A DNA stretch of 64,000 nucleotides, from positions 1 to 64,000 of the forward strand of contig JAUIJE010000006.1 in assembly GCA_030431455.1 (NCBI GenBank), given 5' to 3'. The position numbers were made by a program, and so were the translations under genes. This DNA comes from a bacterium. Lineage in GTDB: Bacteria; Myxococcota; UBA727; JAUIJE01. The notes under the pieces are model-generated. The model was not told where the DNA came from. It was given only the letters and a program-made list of their open reading frames with translations, and did not search any database. Of the stretch, positions 10,158-21,324 are shown piece after piece (the stretch's first letter is position 1; the number at the start of each line of letters is the position of its first letter).

Positions 10158-13100
10158 TCAGTCGTTGAAACACCCGCCCTCATCCGCGAACCCCACGACC
10201 ACGCCTTGGATCGAGGCCCCATCGCTGGTGTGGTACAGCACCGCCGCGTTGCCGGGGGTGGTGTCGCCGGTGGAGAGCATCGGGCGCCGGTCGTCGGCGG
10301 GATACTGGCGGTCTTGGCGCTCGGCCGCGGACAGGGCCGCGGGGTTGGCGTTGTAGCTGTCGGTGAGTTCAAACACATTGTCGAGGGTGTCGTGCAGCCA
10401 CGCCGCGGTGCGGTACCCACGCTGGTAGTAGGTGGGGTAGGGGTAGGCGGCGGGCGCGACCTGCACGCTGCTGGTGGTGAACGCCGCGTAGGCGCGCACT
10501 TCACCGGCCGCGGTGGCGGCGGACATCATCTGGTAGGGCGCGTACACGGTGTTGTAGCTCTCGAACACGTCGCGCTTCACCATGGTGCCGTACGGCGACA
10601 CGGTGGCCGAGAACCCGGCCGCGTCGGGGTAGGTCAGCCCCTCGTGAACGCCGCCCACCGCGTAGTAGCTGGTGGTGCGCGCGACCTCCCACTGGTTGGT
10701 TCCCCGTCGGAGGTAGAGGGACGACGCGCCGCTGAAGGCCAGGCCGTAGTATTGCCGCGTCTCGAACCCGTTGAGCTGGCCTTCGATGAACGACGGGTTG
10801 CTGTTGCCGTTGTCCCGCACGATGGGGGTGCCGTTGAACAGCACGCGGTTGAGGGTCTCGGCGGGAAGGAACCCGGCAATGTAGTTGGACGTGACCAGGG
10901 CCTCCCAGTGGGGGTCGGTGGTGGACGTCCAGCGCAGCACGTCCATCGACCCCATGGCGTAGCCCATGGTGCCCCCCGCGTAGAAACTCCAGGGACCTTG
11001 GGTCCCGCTGAGACCGGTGTAGGGATTGTTGAGCGGGTCGCGCCACACCACGGTGCGCACCTCGCCGCCGTCGTCGAAGGAGGGCGAAGCGAACGGCTCG
11101 ACGTAGGACATCACGATGCGGTCGTCGTCGATGGTGCAGGCCGCGTCGAGGGTGAGATCAAACCGTGGCGGGTCGAGGAAGTTGACCGATTGGGCCACGA
11201 TCTTGGCCAGCCCGCCTTCGCCGCTCAGCCGGTAGAAGCCGAGGTTGGTCAAATCGAGCACGTAGATGTCCGGGTACACCACGGGGTTGACCTCGGCGGG
11301 GTTGGACGTGACCGTGTTGGGGAGGCCAAACGCCACCGGCCAAATCGAGGTGTCTTTGAGAATCGCGAAGCGGCCCCCGTCGCAGACCTGCTTCACCGTG
11401 AGGTTGGTGGGGATGACCGAACTCGATGTCTCGTTGACGAACGCCACCGAGGCCTCGCCCACGTTGCCGGCGGAATCCACCGCGCGAATCTCGAGGAGGT
11501 TGTCGGTGTCTTGCTCGAGGTCGAACTGAATCTTGCCGCCGGAGGGCACGGTGTTGATCCAGGGACCCCCGTTGCTGCGCTGCTCGTACCGGTTGAAGTT
11601 GGTGTCCAAGGTGCTGCCCGCGGGGACGTCGATGCGTGCACATTCATAGTTGACCCCGACGCTGTTGGCCGGGGCCACCAAGGGGGGGCTGGGGGGGACG
11701 TTGTCGAACGTGATCGCGTCGGAGTTCATGGCCCGGACGTTGCCAGCGGCGTCGCGGACTTGGGCGTCGACGCGTTTGAGTCCTTGGCTCAAGATGTCGA
11801 GCGAACAAGAGAACGTCGGTTGGTAGGGAACCACCGGCTTGGTCTGCGGGGAGGTGCCGTTGCAATCCACCTGCATCTGCACCGGGGTGTCCCCGGTGCA
11901 GCTGATGTCGGCGATGACGTCGTTGGCGTTGGTGAAGGCTTGGCCGCCGTTGATCAACACCGACACGCCACTTTCGCAGGGCGCGACGTTGTCGAACACG
12001 AAGGTGTCGATGGTCCAGGGGCTGGCTTGGCCGAGATCATCGAAGGCGCGCACGCTGAAGGTGTAGCCGTCGCCCGCCGCCGCGCTGGGGCTCGACATGT
12101 GGCTGCCGGCCAAGAGCGTGTACGTCGAGGTCGCGGTCATGTCTTGCCACACCGTGACCCCCACGGCGTTCTCGAGCTTGATTTCGAAGGTGCCGTTGCC
12201 GCCGCCCCCGTCGACCCAGTCCGTCACAATGTTGCTGTTCTGGGGGGAGACGATGGGCAACAGGCTGGGGGCGTCGGGGGCGACGGTGTCCACCACCAAC
12301 GAGCGAGAGGCAGACAGGCTTTCGTGGCCCGCGCGGTCCACCGCCCGCACCCGGAAGTACCAGGTGCCATCGGTGAGCTCGGCGGGGGGGAGGATGCCGC
12401 CCGCGGGCCAGAGGTCGCTTTCGTAGTCCACGAACGCGAAGCTTGACGACGTGGAGAGCTGCAGCGAATAGCCCTGGATGCCTGAGGTGGCGTCGCTGCC
12501 ACCGCCCCAGTTGATCCGGGGGCGGGGGTCGTTGGTGAGTTCGCCGTTGGTGATGGTGGTGTCGCCGCTGGCGGTGGTGGCGCCGGGGGTGTTCACAATG
12601 GCACTGAAGGCCGTGGGGGCGGTGGGGGGCACCTGGTCCAGGGTGATGTAGGCGGGGCCCACCGGCGAGATGTTGCCCGCGGCGTCGCGCAAGCACGCGT
12701 GCACTTCGCGGGGGCCGTCGCTGTTGGTCAAGGTGGTGGTGGTGGATGGGAGGTAAGCGACCCACTGTGGTTCGGTGAGCAGAGCGCAGTTGGGCAGCGT
12801 GGTCCCGGTGACGAACATGTCGGTGGTGTCCACCGGAGCCCCCGAGAAGTCGACGTCCACGGTGGTGTCGGTGGAATAGGGCGCGCCGCCATCCACGGTG
12901 ATGATCGCGCTGGGGACGGCGGTGTCGAGCACAATGGTGTCACTGATGACGCTGACATTGCCGGCCCGGTCTTTGAGACAGGCGTACACCGTGCGGTTGC
13001 CGTCCAGGCTGAACAGCGTGGCGGTGCCGCTGATCGAGGTGCTGAACAACCCTGAATAGGTGGCGGAGGAGCAGTCGATGGACTCGGCCCCGACCGCGAT

Positions 13101-16100
13101 CTGCACCGCTTCGTCCGCGGTGCCGGACAGGCTGACGGTGGTGGTGGTGGTGAAGGCCGCGCCCCCGTTGATGCTCAGGCTGCCGCCCGGGCTGGCGCGG
13201 TCGACGGTGATGGTGTCGGTCTGGGTGCTGGTGTTGCCGGCGTAGTCGGTCACCTCCACGCACACCGTGCGCACGCTGTCCGCGCCGGTGGACAGCGTCC
13301 AGGGCAGAGACGAGGCGTAGGGGGTGAGGGGGCCGGTCAGGTTGGCACAGTTGTCGTTGGCGAGGCGAATGCCTTGGATGCCCGAGGTCGCGTCGGTGGC
13401 GGTGAGGTCGAGGGTCACGGGCAGCTTGGCGGTGTGGGTCTCGCCTTGGTCGATGGTGAAGGCGCCGATGGGCGGGGCCAGGGTGTCGAGCACGATGGGA
13501 TCGTTGGCGGTGCCGGTGCGGCCGCTCCCGTCACGGAAACACGCGGTGACGACCTTGGTGCCGTCGCCCCCGCCGAGGGTGAACAGCTTGCTGCTGGCCA
13601 TGGCCTCGTAGGTGGCGGTGGCGCAGTTGAGCGGGCCCTGGGCCAATGCCACTTGGGTGACATCGGGGGAGGCGGAGAGGGAGACGGTGACGCTGGTCGA
13701 GCTGGTGGCGACCGCGCCGCTGTTGACCGAGACCGCGCCCACCGGATCGGTGGTGTCGAGCGAGATGCTGTCGAACGCGGCCGCGGTGTTGCCCGCGACA
13801 TCCCGAAAACACGCGGCCACGGCCTTGAGGCCGTCGCCCGAAGACAGGGCGATGGAGGTGGTCGCGCCGGTGAGGCCCACCGTGACCGGGGTGTAGGTCG
13901 CGGTGGCGCAGTCGAGGCCGTCGTTGGCCAATGCATAGCCATTGGTGTCGCTGGGGAAGGAGACCGACGCGGACACGGTGGTGGACTGGGTGGTGGTGGA
14001 GCCGCCGGCGAGGTTGAGGGTGCCGCTGGGGGGGGTGGTGTCGAGCACGATCGACGTCGAGGCCGAGCCGACCTGGCCCGCGGCGTCGCGCACGCAGACC
14101 GCGAGCTGTTTGGTGCCGTCGGGGGTGGGCAGGGTCCAGTTCTGCGAGGCGGTGAAGGGGGAATAGGTGGCGGTGGCGCAGTCGAGACTGGGTCCGTTGG
14201 CCACCGAGAGGTCGGTGACGTCAGCGTCGGCCGAGATCGCGAGGGTGACGTTGCGGGTGGTGGTGTGGCTGTCCCCGCCGTTGATGCTGACCGCGGCCGA
14301 CGGGGCGGTGCCGTCGAGGGTGATGCCGTCGCTCATGGCGTAGGTCAGGCCCACGCGGTCCCGCAGGCACGCGTACAGGGTGACGGCCCCGTCGGTGGCG
14401 GCGAAGGTAAACTGCTTGTTGGGTTCGTAGCTCTGGTAGCCGGTGGCGGTGGTGCAGTTGGGGGCGGTGGCGGTGAGGAGCACCTCGGTGACGTCCTCGG
14501 AGGCGCTGAGCAGGACGTCAACGGTGGGCGATGTCGAGAACGCCGCGCCCCCGTTGACGAGCACGGTGCCGGAGGGGGCGGTGGTGTCGAGCAGGATGTC
14601 GTCGGCGGCGAGCCCGATGTTGCCGGCTTGGTCGACAAAACACGCGGTCACGGTCTTGGTGCCATCGGGGGCGGGGAGCGGTTGGGTGACGGTGAGCGAG
14701 GTGGTGCCCACGGTCAGCGCGGTGTTGATGTTGACGGTGGCGCAGTCAGCGGCGCCGCCCTGCAGCGCGTAGGCGGCGGTGTCGTTGGGGAAGGTGAGGG
14801 CCACGTCGGGGGTGCTGTCCGATGTGGCCGCGGCCCCGGCCGCGATGCTCACGGTGCCCGCGGGGGGGCTGGTGTCGAGGATGATGGTGGCCGAGCTCTG
14901 GGCGACGTTGCCCGCGGGGTCGCGCACCTCGACGAACACTTCTTTGCTGCCGTCCACCGCGGGGGAGCCGAGCGTCCAGACCGTAGAGGGCGAAAAGCCG
15001 CCGAAGGCGCTGAGGAAGGTCGCGCTGTTGGACAAGCGCAGGGCGGTGGCGCCCGCGGCGACGATGGTCACGTCGACGGTGGCGTCGGTGGTGTAGGCGG
15101 CGCCGTCGTTGAGGGCGAAGGTGCCGATGGTGGGCGCGACCCGGTCGAGGGTGATCGCGAGCGAACGGGGGGCGCTGGGGTTGCCCGCGCCGTCCACGAA
15201 CACCACCGAGACGGTGTGCGCCCCGTCGCTGTCGGGCAGCAGCACCGCGTGGCTGAGCACAAAATCTTGCTCTGCGGGGGCACCCCCATCGACGCTGGTG
15301 CGGATGGTCTTCACCCCGCTGAGGGCATCAGACGCGAACAGTTCGAGCACCACCGTGCGGTCGGCGGTCAACACGTTGCCCGCGTCGAGCACACAACTGC
15401 TGCAGGTGAGCGGGACGGTGTCCGGCGGGGTCGTGTCCAGGGTGATGCTGTCGGTGCGATCGACATCGTTGCCCGCGGCGTCGAAGAACCGGGCGTACAC
15501 AAAGTACAGCCCATCGCCCACGTAGTCGGACGAGTCGCTCAGGTCGAAGGGGACCGAGCCGGGGGGCGTGCCCAGGGTCGCCTCGTCATAATCGGTGAAC
15601 AGCCCGCCGTCCTTGCTCACCCACACCCGGGTCGGGCTGTCGGTCGGGGGCGCGGTGATGTCGAGCGACACCGTGGTGCTGGTGGTGTAGGGACTGCCCC
15701 CGTCGACGGTGAACGACACGCTGGGGGGCGCGGTGTCCAGCACCAGGTCGAAATAGAACGGGTTGTTGTCCGCTGCAGAGACATTGCCGGCGCGGTCCCG
15801 GAACTGCGCGAACACGCGGTAGGCCCCGTCGTTGCCGGACAGGCCCGGCCCCACGAGATTGGCCAGGGTCGCCCCCGCCCCCGCCCCCGACGCGTCGGTG
15901 AACGCGACCTGGGACATGTCCACCCCCGGGGGGGCGATGCCGGTGCCCACGTAGACGGGCAAGAAGCGGTAGGCGGCCACGTCCGCCACCGGCGCGCCGG
16001 TCACGTCGAGCACCGGGGTGAGCGCATCGGTCTGCGCGGTGCCCACCCCGAGGTCGATGAGGTACTGCGCGATGGTCGTGTAGAAGGTGCCCGCGCTTTC

Positions 16101-19100
16101 GATCACCGCCGCCCCGGTGGGGGACGCTTGTACGCCGTGGAGCGCGCGCGGTTCGGTCACGTCGTACACGATGCCGGCGGACAAGGGATTTTGTGAACAG
16201 TTGCCGGCCTGGTCACAGGCAAAACCCCACACGGTGTGCACCTGCTCCAATGGGGCTGCACCCCCCGGGAGGTCAACGACGCAGGCGGCGTTGGCCGCGC
16301 ACACGTCGGCCCCGGGGGGGATGGACCCGGGGGCGGTCGCGGCCCAGGTGACGTACGCGCTGCCCAGGGGGGCGACGTCGCCCTGGCCGGCGGAGGCCGA
16401 GACCCGGACCCGGGCCACCGGCAGGTTGGTGAACGCGCCCACCGCGTTGGGCTGGGTCGATTCGGCGGTGACCGACGAGGGCTCGGGGGCCACGGTATCG
16501 AGCAGAATGCTCGCGGAGAGCACCGGGCCGTTGACCCCACCCTGGACGACCTGCACATAGACCTCGACCACGCCGTCGGCCCCGCTGATGTCGACGGTGG
16601 GGGGCGCGCCCGGGACGTACGTTTGCCAGGCGGGGGTGGCGTCCCCGGCGTCGAAGGGCGTGCGGGCCTGCACCCGGATGTCGGTGACGTCCGCGTCCGC
16701 TTGGAGCCGAATTTGGGCTGACGTGGCGTTGGTGTACGCCTTTTGGGTGCAGGGGTCGTCGCCGACGTGGCACAGGATGAAGTCGCCGCTGATCGGCTTG
16801 AGCAACACCGGGGTGGGCTCGCCCGGGGTGTCCTCGGCCACGATGGTGGTCTGGTTCTGCACGACCTGAATGCCGGTCTCGGTGGCGGTGAAATAGCTCT
16901 CGTAGCTCGCGCGCAGCTCGTAGCGGTCGCTGCCCACCGTGACCACCAGCCCGGGCACGGGGAAGGTGTAGCTGCCGTCGGGCTCGGTCACGGTCTGGTC
17001 GATGATGTCGCCGTTGAGCACGGCGCTGACCAAGATGCCGCCGTGGGCGGACAGGTCGTCGGCCTTGTCCTCGAAGCGAAACACCCCCGTGACGTTGCCG
17101 CGGGCGTAGGCCAGGCGCGTGGTGCCCACCGCGGTGGGTTGGCCGGCCACCACTTGGCCCACGGGGATTTCGGTGGCGACCAGGCCCGCGCGCTCGAGGG
17201 TCAAGAAGTAGCCGGTGCCTTCCGGCACCTGACCAAACACGAACCCGCCGAGCGCATCGGTGAGGGTCTCGTCAACTGGCGCGTCCGTGCCCGGCGCCGC
17301 GCCGGGGGCGTAGAGCCGGGCCACAATGCCACTGTGAACGGGGCTGTCCCCTGGTTCTTGGTCGACCAGGGCCCGGCCGCCCACGGTGCCGGTGAGGTCC
17401 AGGGTGTAGACCGGGCTGTCCACAGACAGGACGTTGCCGGCGCGGTCTTTGACCTCGGCGGTGAACGAAAAGGACGACCCGTTGGCGCCGGTGACGCTCA
17501 GCACCTGGCTTGCCACAAAAGGACCAAAGGCGGTGCCGGCGGGGATCGCGTCTTGGTGTACGCGCATCGCGACCGGTTCGTCGGCGAGGTCGAGGTCGTC
17601 AGGCACAAAAAACGCAACCTGCGCGCTTCGGCCTTTCAGCACGCCCCCCGCGTCGGCGTTCTGCACCTCGAGGGGCAAAATGCCTTGGCCCGCGTCCCCG
17701 AGCACGGGGGGGCTGGTGTCGACCATGATGCTCACCGGCACCGGGTCAGCGGCGTTGCCCGCCTGGTCCGCGAGCCAGACCCAGAACACCTTCTCGCCTT
17801 CCCCCGCGCTGGCCACGGAGTTGAGCTGCAGCTGGGCCAAGCCGGGGGGGGCGTCGATGTCCGCCCCCGCGAGCACGGTCTCGTCGCCGGGGCCGTTGTC
17901 GGCCTGGATGTGCACTTGGGCCCGGGCCACCTGAGAGGTCTCGTCCACCGCGAGCACATCGAGCCCCACCGCGGCCCCGTCCTCGGTTTGCCAATAGGTG
18001 CCGTCGGCGTCGGGCACGAGGTTGCGGACCTCGACGTCGATGACCGCGGGGGGCACGGTGTCGCGCACCACCTCGGTGGAGAACAGATCGGTGGTGAACA
18101 CAAACTCGGGATGGTCTGGGCTCTGGGCTTGAAACTGTGCATAGATGGGCACCGGGCCTTGCACATTGGGCAGCGCCACCGTGACCTGGGCGGTGAACGC
18201 GGCAAACGGGGCCGCCTCCGCCGCGAACGCGGGATCGGTCGAGACCCGCATCGAGAGCTGGCTGGCGTCGGTGAAGGCGAGCACGTCCACCGCGACCTCG
18301 TCGTCGCGGGTGTAGTAGGCGCCGTTGTCCTCGGTGGACAGGTTGGGCTTCAGCACCGCGGTGACCGGGTAGAGCAGCAGCGCGTCCCCGTCGGCCGAGC
18401 CCTCGTCGAACAGCACGGTGGGGGGCTCGGGGGTGCGGGCCCCGGTCACGGTGATGCCCACCCGGAAGTCAGGGGCGAACCCGGGCCGCTCCGCGAGCAG
18501 GCCGTAGGTCCCGTTGTCGAGACCCGCGAAGCTGAAGCCGCCCTCTCCGTCGGTGGGCAGCTCCCGAATGGGCTGGGCCCCGGTGCCGGTTCGTTTGTAC
18601 AATGTCACTGTGCGCGGGCCGCCTTGTACGTCTTGGAGGTTGACCCGCCCCGCGATCACGGCTTGGCCGGCGTTGTCCTCGGTGGTGGGTTCGCGCAGCA
18701 CCAGGTCCCCGAGGTCGCGCTCCTCGCCGGGGGCGAGCAGGTCGATGGACAGCGCGTTCTCCATGCCCAGGAGGTCGGCGGGCCGCTCGGGGATGGTGAG
18801 GCGGAGATTGCCGGGGGTGAGCTCGTCGAACACAAACCCTGCGGTCCCGCTGCTCTCATCGCAGTCGAGGGGGAACTCGAGGGCGCCGAGCGGTTCGCAG
18901 CGGCCGGCTTTGACCAGCTCGCCGCCCTGCTTGAGCTCGAGCCGCAGGGTGCGGAGGTCCTCGAGCACGACGTCGGGGTCGGCCCCCACCCGGTCGATGA
19001 CCACGGTGCCCAAGACGCTGGCTTTGGCTTGTTGGCTCGGATCGTTGTCCGGGTCGTACGCGTTGATGGGGGGCAGGCAGCCAGTGAACACAAAGATCAA

Positions 19101-19130
19101 AAGGACGACACAGCGACCAGCCACACGCAT
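10158..19130 (-). CDS. Giant multi-Ig lipoprotein (about 2990 residues), adhesin-like
   Basis: The reading frame extends upstream to 19283, but ATG 19130 is the likely start. GGGAGG lies 7 nt before it, and it begins a lipoprotein signal (RCVVLLIFVFTGC, lipid Cys18); the extension would be (Cys-Val)n from a CA repeat. The N-terminal 250 residues hold two carboxypeptidase-regulatory-like folds (GEGGFSFAGLDNGTYGLLAE); a third lies further on (LGGFVFGQVPEGTGYFLTLE). The middle is about 20 tandem modules of roughly 75-110 residues, each opening with 'LDTTPPSGTVxINGG' and ending 'VRDAAGNVGxxSxxI', typical of bacterial Ig-like repeats. Many modules carry one or two Cys. The last 550 residues are different, Tyr- and Asn-rich, possibly propeller-like, ending GGCFND. 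It is probably an outer-surface adhesin or fibre. The antisense frames of 746-940 codons are shadows. Confidence 0.85.
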   Translation of the reverse strand: MRVAGRCVVLLIFVFTGCLPPINAYDPDNDPSQQAKASVLGTVVIDRVGADPDVVLEDLRTLRLELKQGGELVKAGRCEPLGALEFPLDCDESSGTAGFVFDELTPGNLRLTIPERPADLLGMENALSIDLLAPGEERDLGDLVLREPTTEDNAGQAVIAGRVNLQDVQGGPRTVTLYKRTGTGAQPIRELPTDGEGGFSFAGLDNGTYGLLAERPGFAPDFRVGITVTGARTPEPPTVLFDEGSADGDALLLYPVTAVLKPNLSTEDNGAYYTRDDEVAVDVLAFTDASQLSMRVSTDPAFAAEAAPFAAFTAQVTVALPNVQGPVPIYAQFQAQSPDHPEFVFTTDLFSTEVVRDTVPPAVIDVEVRNLVPDADGTYWQTEDGAAVGLDVLAVDETSQVARAQVHIQADNGPGDETVLAGADIDAPPGLAQLQLNSVASAGEGEKVFWVWLADQAGNAADPVPVSIMVDTSPPVLGDAGQGILPLEVQNADAGGVLKGRSAQVAFFVPDDLDLADEPVAMRVHQDAIPAGTAFGPFVASQVLSVTGANGSSFSFTAEVKDRAGNVLSVDSPVYTLDLTGTVGGRALVDQEPGDSPVHSGIVARLYAPGAAPGTDAPVDETLTDALGGFVFGQVPEGTGYFLTLERAGLVATEIPVGQVVAGQPTAVGTTRLAYARGNVTGVFRFEDKADDLSAHGGILVSAVLNGDIIDQTVTEPDGSYTFPVPGLVVTVGSDRYELRASYESYFTATETGIQVVQNQTTIVAEDTPGEPTPVLLKPISGDFILCHVGDDPCTQKAYTNATSAQIRLQADADVTDIRVQARTPFDAGDATPAWQTYVPGAPPTVDISGADGVVEVYVQVVQGGVNGPVLSASILLDTVAPEPSSVTAESTQPNAVGAFTNLPVARVRVSASAGQGDVAPLGSAYVTWAATAPGSIPPGADVCAANAACVVDLPGGAAPLEQVHTVWGFACDQAGNCSQNPLSAGIVYDVTEPRALHGVQASPTGAAVIESAGTFYTTIAQYLIDLGVGTAQTDALTPVLDVTGAPVADVAAYRFLPVYVGTGIAPPGVDMSQVAFTDASGAGAGATLANLVGPGLSGNDGAYRVFAQFRDRAGNVSAADNNPFYFDLVLDTAPPSVSFTVDGGSPYTTSTTVSLDITAPPTDSPTRVWVSKDGGLFTDYDEATLGTPPGSVPFDLSDSSDYVGDGLYFVYARFFDAAGNDVDRTDSITLDTTPPDTVPLTCSSCVLDAGNVLTADRTVVLELFASDALSGVKTIRTSVDGGAPAEQDFVLSHAVLLPDSDGAHTVSVVFVDGAGNPSAPRSLAITLDRVAPTIGTFALNDGAAYTTDATVDVTIVAAGATALRLSNSATFLSAFGGFSPSTVWTLGSPAVDGSKEVFVEVRDPAGNVAQSSATIILDTSPPAGTVSIAAGAAATSDSTPDVALTFPNDTAAYALQGGAADCATVNINTALTVGTTSLTVTQPLPAPDGTKTVTACFVDQAGNIGLAADDILLDTTAPSGTVLVNGGAAFSTSPTVDVLLSASEDVTEVLLTATAPNCTTATGYQSYEPNKQFTFAATDGAVTLYACLRDRVGLTYAMSDGITLDGTAPSAAVSINGGDSHTTTRNVTLAISADADVTDLSVANGPSLDCATATYSPFTASQNWTLPTPDGTKQLAVCVRDAAGQVGSASTSIVLDTTPPSGTLNLAGGSTTTQSTTVSASVSFPSDTNGYALANDGLDCATATYTPVTVGLTGATTSIALSSGDGLKAVAACFRDVAGNTAAAFDSISLDTTDPVGAVSVNSGAVATSSTSVTVSLSASPDVTQVALAQGPLNCATATYEAMASSKLFTLGGGDGTKVVTACFRDGSGRTGTANDPIVLDTLAPPIGAFTIDQGETHTAKLPVTLDLTATDATSGIQGIRLANDNCANLTGPLTPYASSLPWTLSTGADSVRTVCVEVTDYAGNTSTQTDTITVDRASPGGSLSINGGAAFTTTTTVSLSGTADEAVQIAVGAESIDCSSATYSGLFSTSISGTATLFSLDGNRTVYACLKDRAGNVSVISDTIVLDTAVPSAIITVDGGAPYSTDTTVDVDFSGAPVDTTDMFVTGTTLPNCALLTEPQWVAYLPSTTTTLTNSDGPREVHACLRDAAGNISPVGPAYITLDQVPPTAPTAFSAIVNTPGATTASGDTTITNGELTNDPRPRINWGGGSDATSGIQGYSLQLSTSSSFAFVDYESDLWPAGGILPPAELTDGTWYFRVRAVDRAGHESLSASRSLVVDTVAPDAPSLLPIVSPQNSNIVTDWVDGGGGNGTFEIKLENAVGVTVWQDMTATSTYTLLAGSHMSSPSAAAGDGYTFSVRAFDDLGQASPWTIDTFVFDNVAPCESGVSVLINGGQAFTNANDVIADISCTGDTPVQMQVDCNGTSPQTKPVVPYQPTFSCSLDILSQGLKRVDAQVRDAAGNVRAMNSDAITFDNVPPSPPLVAPANSVGVNYECARIDVPAGSTLDTNFNRYEQRSNGGPWINTVPSGGKIQFDLEQDTDNLLEIRAVDSAGNVGEASVAFVNETSSSVIPTNLTVKQVCDGGRFAILKDTSIWPVAFGLPNTVTSNPAEVNPVVYPDIYVLDLTNLGFYRLSGEGGLAKIVAQSVNFLDPPRFDLTLDAACTIDDDRIVMSYVEPFASPSFDDGGEVRTVVWRDPLNNPYTGLSGTQGPWSFYAGGTMGYAMGSMDVLRWTSTTDPHWEALVTSNYIAGFLPAETLNRVLFNGTPIVRDNGNSNPSFIEGQLNGFETRQYYGLAFSGASSLYLRRGTNQWEVARTTSYYAVGGVHEGLTYPDAAGFSATVSPYGTMVKRDVFESYNTVYAPYQMMSAATAAGEVRAYAAFTTSSVQVAPAAYPYPTYYQRGYRTAAWLHDTLDNVFELTDSYNANPAALSAAERQDRQYPADDRRPMLSTGDTTPGNAAVLYHTSDGASIQGVVVGFADEGGCFND

Positions 19131-19232
19131 CGGCACACCTCCCAAAGCGGGAGGCATTGTCCGCTGAGCCGAAAGTGGACCGCAAGCGACCGGCGGGGCC
19201 TGGTGCGTCGAGACACAGCCAGGGGTCGGGCA

Positions 19233-19261
19233 TAAAAAAAAGCCCCTCCCGAGGGAGGGGC
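19233..19261 (-). terminator. Intrinsic terminator, minus strand
   Basis: Stem GCCCCTCCC/GGGAGGGGC with a tiny loop is flanked on the + strand by an A8 run on the left only. It therefore ends transcripts moving leftward, ahead of the giant lipoprotein gene. Confidence 0.85.
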
Positions 19262-19263
19262 AT

Positions 19264-19283
19264 ACACACACACACACACACAA
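19264..19283 (+). repeat. (CA)n dinucleotide microsatellite
   Basis: About ten CA units, with a second shorter (CA)4-5 at about 19355-19367. On the minus strand they are (TG)n within the RNA candidate, and they create the spurious (Cys-Val)n extension of the giant lipoprotein frame. Slippage here would change the spacing between the RNA fold and its terminator. Confidence 0.85.
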
Positions 19284-19549
19284 TCAGGGGGCTACAACCC
19301 GAGGGGCGCAGAGTCGGCAAGGCCACCACCTCGCCGGGCGCCACATCGGAGGGGTCACACACACACCGAGCGGTCCCTGACCAAAAGGAGTATCGCCCCC
19401 CGGTGTGGTCAGGTTGCTGACATGTCGGATAAAGGCCCACGTTGACTGTAAGTGGCTGTACAATTTGAAAAAACTGGTCGCCGGCCGAGATCCAGCGGGC
19501 GGCGCCGCCGTGCACGAGCGGGCCAAGGTTCGTATGCTGGCGCGACCTT

Positions 19550-20890
19550 GTGGGGGTGAACGTGAACGAGTCAAAGCCGCGTCCGACGTGGCGCCGCCGC
19601 GTGCTGCAGGTGGTGTTGTTGCTGGTGTTGCTCGGCCTGGTCGTCAGCGGGGCGCTGGCCACCGCGGCGTGCCGAAGCATGGGCCAGGCCCCGCGGGGCG
19701 AGCGGCTGCTGCGCATGAAGCACTCCCCGATTTGGAGCGAGAGCAGCCAAGGCTTCAAAAACCGGATGCCCCAAGTGCAGGACCCGATGCTCGACCTGGT
19801 CGGGGACTGGGTCACCGGGGGGTCGGCGCACCGGGTGCCCGAGACGCTGCCGCCGGTGTTGTCGCGGACCCGCGCCGACTTCGACACCCCGCCGGCCACC
19901 GGCCTGCGCGTGACCTGGCTCGGTCACTCGACGCTGCTCGTCGAGATCGACGGGGCCCGGGTCCTGGTCGACCCGGTGTGGGGGCCCCGCGCGTCGCCCT
20001 GGACCTTCCTCGGCCCCGCGCGCTGGTACCCGCCGCCGCTCCCCCTCGACGAGCTGCCCGACATCACCGCGGTGGTGATCTCCCACGACCACTACGACCA
20101 CCTCGACCTGCCCACCGTCGACGCCCTCAAGGACAAAGACATCCCCTGGGTCGTGCCGCTCGGGGTGGGCGCGCATCTCGAGTACTGGGGGGTGCCGACC
20201 GAGCGCGTGTTCGATCTCGACTGGTGGGAAGCAAAGACCCTCGGCGGCCTCACCCTCACCGCGACCCCGGCGCGCCACTTCTCCGGCCGCTCGATGCCCG
20301 GCGAAAACGGCGGGCCGACCTTGTGGGCAGGCTGGGCGATGACCACCGACGCCCACCGCGTCTACTACTCGGGCGACACCGCGATGTTCGAGGAGCTGCT
20401 CGACATCGGCAAACGGCTCGGCCCCTTCGACATCACCATGATCGAGACCGGGGCCTACAACAAGGCGTGGGCCGACGTGCACATGGGGCCGGAGCAGGCG
20501 GTGCGCGCCCACCGGCTGGTGCGCGGCGAGGTGTTCTTGCCGGTGCATTGGGGGCTTTTTGATCTCGCCCTGCACGGCTGGACCGAGCCCATCGAGCGGG
20601 TGTTGGTCGCGGCCGAAAAAGAGGGGGTGACGGTGGTGAGCCCGCCGCCGGGCGGTTCGGTCGAGCCGGCGGTGCCCACCCCGGTGAAGCGGTGGTGGCC
20701 AGACGTCCCCTGGGACCCGGTGGAGGTGCACGCGGCGTTTTCGAGCGGAACCGCGCATCTCATGCGCGACGACGCCGTGCCCGCGGCGCTGCCCGCGGCC
20801 GCCGATGACAAGCCCGCCGCGGTCCTGGACGCCGACGACGGGCCGCTCAGCGAGGAGCCCGCGGCGGTGATCACCCCGTCGAAGCCCTGA
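19550..20890 (+). CDS. MBL-fold metallohydrolase, NAPE-PLD/UlaG-like
   Basis: 446 residues from GTG 19550 (a GTG at 19562 is also possible). One N-terminal membrane segment, at about 17-40 (VLQVVLLLVLLGLVVSGALA), suggests an anchored protein with its domain outside the cytoplasm. The core has the metallo-beta-lactamase signature: 'TWLGHSTLLVEIDG', zinc motif HxHxDH at His179, His181, Asp183 and His184 (HDHYDHLD), a later 'TPARHFSGR', 'YYSGDTAMF' and 'LPVHWGLFDLALH'. This arrangement matches the L-ascorbate-6-phosphate lactonase/NAPE-phospholipase D branch, so a phospholipid phosphodiesterase activity is possible but not shown. After about 370 there is an Ala/Pro/Asp-rich tail with no domain. 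It is monocistronic, with tRNA genes downstream. Confidence 0.85.
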   Translation: MGVNVNESKPRPTWRRRVLQVVLLLVLLGLVVSGALATAACRSMGQAPRGERLLRMKHSPIWSESSQGFKNRMPQVQDPMLDLVGDWVTGGSAHRVPETLPPVLSRTRADFDTPPATGLRVTWLGHSTLLVEIDGARVLVDPVWGPRASPWTFLGPARWYPPPLPLDELPDITAVVISHDHYDHLDLPTVDALKDKDIPWVVPLGVGAHLEYWGVPTERVFDLDWWEAKTLGGLTLTATPARHFSGRSMPGENGGPTLWAGWAMTTDAHRVYYSGDTAMFEELLDIGKRLGPFDITMIETGAYNKAWADVHMGPEQAVRAHRLVRGEVFLPVHWGLFDLALHGWTEPIERVLVAAEKEGVTVVSPPPGGSVEPAVPTPVKRWWPDVPWDPVEVHAAFSSGTAHLMRDDAVPAALPAAADDKPAAVLDADDGPLSEEPAAVITPSKP

Positions 20891-20946: not shown

Positions 20947-21037
20947 GGGCAGGTGTCCGAGTGGTTGAAGGTGCCTGACTCGAAATCAGGTGTGCGTTCA
21001 TAGCGTACCGGGGGTTCGAATCCCTCCCTGCCCGCCA
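20947..21037 (+). tRNA. tRNA-Ser (anticodon CGA)
   Basis: Acceptor GGGCAGG pairs with CCTGCCC, the discriminator is G, and CCA is encoded. The anticodon loop CTCGAAA gives CGA (Ser, UCG codons). A long variable arm and a perfect T-arm (GGGGG-TTCGAAT-CCCTC) identify a class II serine tRNA. Confidence 0.96.
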
Positions 21038-21096
21038 TTTGAAGACTGTGACGAAGGAGCGACGCAGAGACATTTGAGGAGACAGTCTTCCGCCAC

Positions 21097-21186
21097 GGAT
21101 CGGTGACCGAGTGGCTGAAGGTGCACGACTGGAAATCGTGTGTGCGTTTACGCGTACCGAGGGTTCGAATCCCTCCCGATCCGCCA
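21097..21186 (+). tRNA. tRNA-Ser (anticodon GGA)
   Basis: Acceptor GGATCGG pairs with CCGATCC, with discriminator G and encoded CCA. The anticodon loop CTGGAAA gives GGA (Ser, UCC/UCU). It has a long variable arm and shares most of its body with the neighbouring tRNA-Ser, so the two are probably an old duplication. The 60-nt spacer holds an inverted repeat (GAAGACTGT at 21041, ACAGTCTTC at 21082) that could fold as a processing hairpin in a joint precursor. Confidence 0.96.
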
Positions 21187-21189
21187 GCC

Positions 21190-21270
21190 GCATCACAATC
21201 GCAACGTCCGAACCCCGCCAGGCCCGGAAGGGAGCAACGGTAGGACCCCCTGCGATGTGTGGTGCGGTCT
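21190..21270 (+). ncRNA. ffs: Bacterial small SRP RNA (4.5S RNA)
   Basis: The diagnostic apical motif CCAGGCCCGGAAGGGAGCAA is present (symmetric and asymmetric loop with the GGAA tetraloop). The ends GCATCACA-ATCGCA and TGCGATGTGTGGTGC pair to form the long rod, and a T6 run follows at 21269-21275. The RNA binds Ffh and targets nascent membrane proteins to the Sec machinery. It starts 4 nt after the tRNA-Ser CCA, so it may be released from a tRNA-ffs precursor. Confidence 0.93.
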
Positions 21271-21324
21271 TTTTTGTCTCGAAACCGTCCCCGCATTTGT
21301 CCCTCGCGCCCGCGGTGGGCGACC

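Follow-up and report, generated by a model that had tools for sequence, protein, structure and literature searches.

What does a strong intrinsic terminator end if no protein gene precedes it on its own strand? This question is raised by a divergent gap of about 420 nt in the window analyzed here, i.e. a stretch of 64,000 nucleotides (68% G+C) on contig C2, which belongs to a 7.7-Mb genome. To the left, the gap is bordered by a giant lipoprotein gene (10158-19130, minus strand; 2990 aa) with Ig-like and carboxypeptidase-regulatory-like domains; its ATG at position 19130 has the sequence GGGAGG just 5' of it and is followed by the lipobox FTGC. To the right, a metallo-beta-lactamase-fold hydrolase (Lactamase_B_2, Pfam PF12706) is encoded on the plus strand (19550-20890; exact start codon uncertain within 19550-19571), behind which two tRNA-Ser genes (anticodons CGA and GGA) and a small SRP RNA are located in a row (20947-21273, plus strand). 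The gap between both genes houses the terminator and a candidate RNA: a short non-coding RNA, some 200 bases long, probably has its 3' end at the orphan terminator, as predicted from the analyses described below.

The intrinsic minus-strand terminator that had been described in the earlier note was recovered at positions 19261-19234 (stem 19261-19242, GCCCCTCC-CTCG-GGAGGGGC; U8 tract 19241-19234). Its stem comprises 8 bp, seven of them G-C, and encloses a loop of 4; eight T follow next on the minus strand, and the distance from the stem to the lipoprotein ATG is 112 nt. Folded alone, the hairpin reached −16.5 kcal/mol, and its base pairs had a probability of at least 0.99 in the computed fold of the whole transcript. 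The statement that no minus-strand protein gene lies 5' of the terminator held as well: the neighboring gene occupies the plus strand, and codon scores were negative for all ORFs tested in the gap, including an 87-aa plus-strand ORF. In contrast, the long rod with nested stems that had been described for the preceding sequence was not substantiated. The fold of 19233-19430 was more stable than that of shuffled sequences (z = −2.7 to −3.2), with the terminator contributing most; without it, z was only −1.5 to −1.7 (9-13 of 200 shuffles were equally stable), and the stretch 19285-19460 yielded z = 0.0. The “rod” is only what so G+C-rich a sequence gives.

The rarity of such a structure was assessed with one gene- and terminator-calling procedure applied to 2.46 Mb of the genome. 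A stem of 8 bp or more with U6 behind it was found 26 times, versus 2, 0, 0, 0 and 0 times in five shuffles. On a stricter list of 17 terminators, two were orphans with no same-strand gene before them (19261-19242 and C8:223772), while the remaining ones were located 9-85 nt behind a same-strand gene, except for two inside called genes; the terminator at C2:435290, inside a called gene, looks as if it belonged to a minus-strand gene that had been called on the wrong strand, since a stop codon precedes the hairpin. Only three of 320 divergent gaps contained a strong terminator, including the one at 19261-19234; the two others end tRNA-Lys and tRNA-Glu genes, and further orphan terminators of the genome end tRNA-His and tRNA-Ala genes. 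Orphan terminators in this genome therefore tend to mark the ends of RNA genes. In consequence of its rarity compared with shuffled sequence and its orphan position in a divergent gap, a short minus-strand transcript probably ends at the terminator investigated here, and the earlier proposal of a minus-strand RNA candidate is backed by the terminator together with its unusual place. Around six further terminators, either orphan or distant, no Rfam family was found. The strong orphan terminator at C8:223772-223793 (minus strand; U6) has no tRNA nearby and no Rfam family on its 20-kb stretch, and is a candidate for a second small RNA. At C16:164070-164270, three similar terminator hairpins follow a tRNA-His gene with a spacing of about 88 nt.

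The predicted non-coding transcript extends over positions 19438-19234 of the minus strand (about 200 nt), as delimited by the terminator and a promoter scan; it shows no coding signal and matches no Rfam family. Its 3' end is well supported, its 5' end (about 19438) is guessed from the best promoter match. Of the features expected of a stand-alone small RNA, it possesses its own Rho-independent terminator that belongs to no protein gene. The best minus-strand promoter-like matches were located 5' of the predicted RNA and between terminator and ATG. The former, TTTTCA-15-TACAGT (19471-19445), lies where the gap is richest in AT and suggests a start near 19438; it is weak (95th percentile of random 150-nt stretches, 83rd percentile of gene-upstream stretches) and overlaps a likewise weak plus-strand match for the hydrolase gene, TTGACT-17-TTGAAA (19442-19470). 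The latter, TTGCGG-18-GACAAT (19185-19156), is also weak (90th percentile of random stretches) and could serve the lipoprotein gene alone, with a start near 19149.

The reading that we favor, and to which we assign an even chance of being correct, is that the gap yields a short non-coding minus-strand RNA stopped constitutively by the terminator, and that the lipoprotein gene is transcribed from a promoter of its own. The RNA of about 200 nt would start in the AT-rich stretch near 19440-19475, from a promoter that probably overlaps the hydrolase's own promoter, and would be released at the strong terminator 19261-19234. By acting constitutively, this terminator would keep transcription of the RNA out of the lipoprotein gene, which would be transcribed separately from a promoter in the gap of about 110 nt behind the terminator. 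Both promoters, the 5' end of the RNA and the separate transcription of the lipoprotein gene are what we infer from these matches, as would be any function of the RNA. The candidate is ordinary in kind: it may represent either a lineage-specific small RNA or the by-product of a two-way promoter.

Conservation analyses did not provide further indications. Among 195 genomes of the phylum (none of the same family), only short chance matches to the DNA of the gap were found; a single match in another genome (L103) reached E < 1e-4, but most likely represents coding sequence because long open frames overlap at its position. At 12 homologues of the lipoprotein gene and about 38 homologues of the hydrolase gene, neither the terminator nor the CA repeat described below was found. 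These data therefore provide no evidence of selection on the predicted RNA, of which conserved relatives were absent in the 195 genomes and paralogues in its own genome, where it is present as a single copy.

Both variants of this reading have counterparts in the literature. Like the orphan-terminator candidates of Sinorhizobium meliloti (PMC2573895), the predicted RNA is marked by an intergenic Rho-independent terminator of neither flanking gene, lacks an Rfam family and shows no coding signal; in contrast to the present case without relatives, nearly all candidates of the first S. meliloti set had conserved counterparts in related species, and transcript tests were carried out for several of them. 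Two-way promoters have been shown to be enriched between divergent genes of the Salmonella chromosome, the second RNA often being non-coding (PMC10268837). Resemblance to these bidirectional-promoter RNAs is given by the divergent gene pair, the promoter-like matches that overlap on opposite strands where the gap is most AT-rich and a predicted non-coding RNA directed away from the main gene; however, the candidate starts are about 39 bp apart in contrast to the defining 7-25 bp, and a dedicated strong terminator is present here (PMC10268837).

The main rival of a separate short RNA is a conditional-termination leader, as had already been suggested by the earlier note in the form of a leader that switches the 9-kb gene; we regard it as possible, but rather doubtful. 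According to this explanation, the promoter near 19440-19475 is that of the lipoprotein gene; most transcripts stop at 19242-19234, and a factor or signal permits readthrough into the costly 9-kb gene. Indeed, the terminator is situated downstream of a possible promoter and upstream of a very large gene's ATG, in the same orientation, and from sequence a conditional leader would look identical to a separate short RNA. In addition, the genome encodes two NusG homologues, and specialized NusG paralogues such as LoaP, which enable polymerase readthrough of leader terminators in very long operons (PMC12691694), offer a precedent. The arrangement is thus similar to leader attenuators and LoaP/RfaH-type leaders in that a terminator occupies the putative 5' leader preceding a very large gene, but differs by the missing antiterminator, by having no established recruitment element and by a NusG paralogue that is not close to the gene (PMC12691694). 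The second NusG homologue (G000:C18:113745-114029, minus strand; 63 bits) resembles operon-specific antiterminators; it is positioned on another contig, among genes that, judged by their sequences, resemble those of polysaccharide export. No link between the NusG homologues and the terminator locus was found, and RfaH/LoaP-type antitermination was not retained as a candidate.

Several results argue against the leader. Attenuators are characterized by mutually exclusive antiterminator and terminator pairings; in the full fold, nothing upstream competed for the 5' arm of the hairpin, which has no upstream partner, and forbidding the hairpin cost 17.7 kcal/mol. No riboswitch or other leader family was matched: searches of the stretch with riboswitch and 6S (RF00013) models gave nothing above the cut-off, and all Rfam matches remained far below the gathering scores and were mostly placed over the terminator region. 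The terminator is not conserved at the 12 homologous lipoprotein genes. The one upstream ORF with three Trp codons (MWRPARWWPCRLCAPRVVAP, 19346-19284) is reminiscent of a trp leader peptide, but lacks a Shine-Dalgarno sequence and has a coding score of −9.1; a peptide-leader attenuator of the trp type was rejected on these grounds. In summary, neither a riboswitch match nor an antiterminator was found for the proposed switching of the 9-kb gene, and a possible separate promoter lies downstream of the terminator.

Alternatively, the hairpin could be a chance structure or a relic with no transcript to end, e.g. the remnant of a lost gene or a rearranged junction. The lack of relatives at the terminator locus and the weakness of the promoter matches would be consistent with this explanation; it is nevertheless unlikely, as shuffled sequence contains hairpins of this kind only very rarely and both the stem and the U8 tract are intact.

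Slightly less probable still is a trans-acting small RNA, an explanation based on the CA repeat. The presence of this repeat, also described by the earlier note, was confirmed: (CA)9 at 19264-19281 reads as (UG)9 in the minus-strand RNA, where it is predicted to be unpaired directly 5' of the terminator, and a second run, (CA)5, is located 90 bp away at 19356-19365. (CA)9 is the longest CA run of the 7.7-Mb genome, which contains no other run of (CA)8 or longer; among 92 intergenic terminators in 2.46 Mb, a run of more than three units was present at the 19261-19234 terminator only. At G000:C16:534764, (CA)7 reads as (UG)7 immediately ahead of another protein gene's terminator, the parts being ordered as at 19234-19281; of the three longest CA runs in the genome, two abut terminators. 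With this one further case only, (UG)n beside terminators was not accepted as a general feature. The assumption that the CA repeat tunes the RNA or its terminator was likewise unsupported, the repeat being unpaired with the hairpin in the computed folds.

As a trans-acting RNA, the candidate would pair with CA-rich ribosome-binding-site regions via the unpaired (UG)9. A precedent exists in GcvB, whose unstructured, GU-rich region R1 recognizes CA-rich repeats located at ribosome-binding sites (PMC3879156), and the predicted single-stranded state of (UG)9 beside the terminator would be in accordance with such a mode of action. In one gene of the genome (C28:75019), (AC)7 immediately precedes the Shine-Dalgarno sequence; the run is located at G000:C28:74993-75019, directly 5' of AGGAG and ATG, and the product starts like a peptidoglycan-binding protein as read from its sequence. 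However, against 1,800 start regions, (UG)9 gave pairing energies that did not surpass those of shuffled seeds or of the wrong strand, no Hfq (PF17209) was matched in the 97%-complete genome, and the predicted RNA is without conservation in the 195 genomes of the phylum. The candidate shares with GcvB an unpaired GU-rich stretch and a Rho-independent terminator, but differs by the missing Hfq, by targets that do not exceed the control level and by the lack of a detectable sequence relationship. The more specific assumption of a small RNA in an Hfq-less member of the phylum, with an uninterrupted, slippage-prone (UG)9 seed whose repeat length could alter its strength on mRNAs with CA-rich leaders, is very improbable.

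The assignment of the terminator-bounded RNA as the organism's 6S RNA, for which only length and a long imperfect computed fold speak, can be dismissed with near certainty: a 6S RNA of 62 bits, matching the full covariance model (RF00013; gathering score, 46.4 bits), is encoded as the sole copy of the genome at G000:C25:32064-32239, the very finding that the note itself had named as refuting, whereas no 6S match was obtained in the window or, up to E = 10, at the candidate locus itself. Single copies are the rule in the phylum (one match each in 40 of 58 genomes searched). The two blocks said to resemble Escherichia coli 6S RNA were not confirmed, as the best local alignment of the stretch to the genome's own 6S RNA was equaled by 30 of 500 shuffles. 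The candidate resembles 6S RNA in its length near 180-200 nt and in a long imperfect helix of the computed fold, but fails the model, i.e. the closing stem, central bubble and terminal stem mimicking an open promoter were not matched.

If transcribed, the RNA would be one more lineage-specific non-coding RNA; alternatively, the locus would clearly illustrate how a terminator can protect a surface-protein gene of very large size against divergent transcription. How giant lipoprotein genes are controlled in this bacterial group has, to our knowledge, been little studied; for this reason, the terminator would gain greater weight only if readthrough into the lipoprotein gene proved to be regulated.
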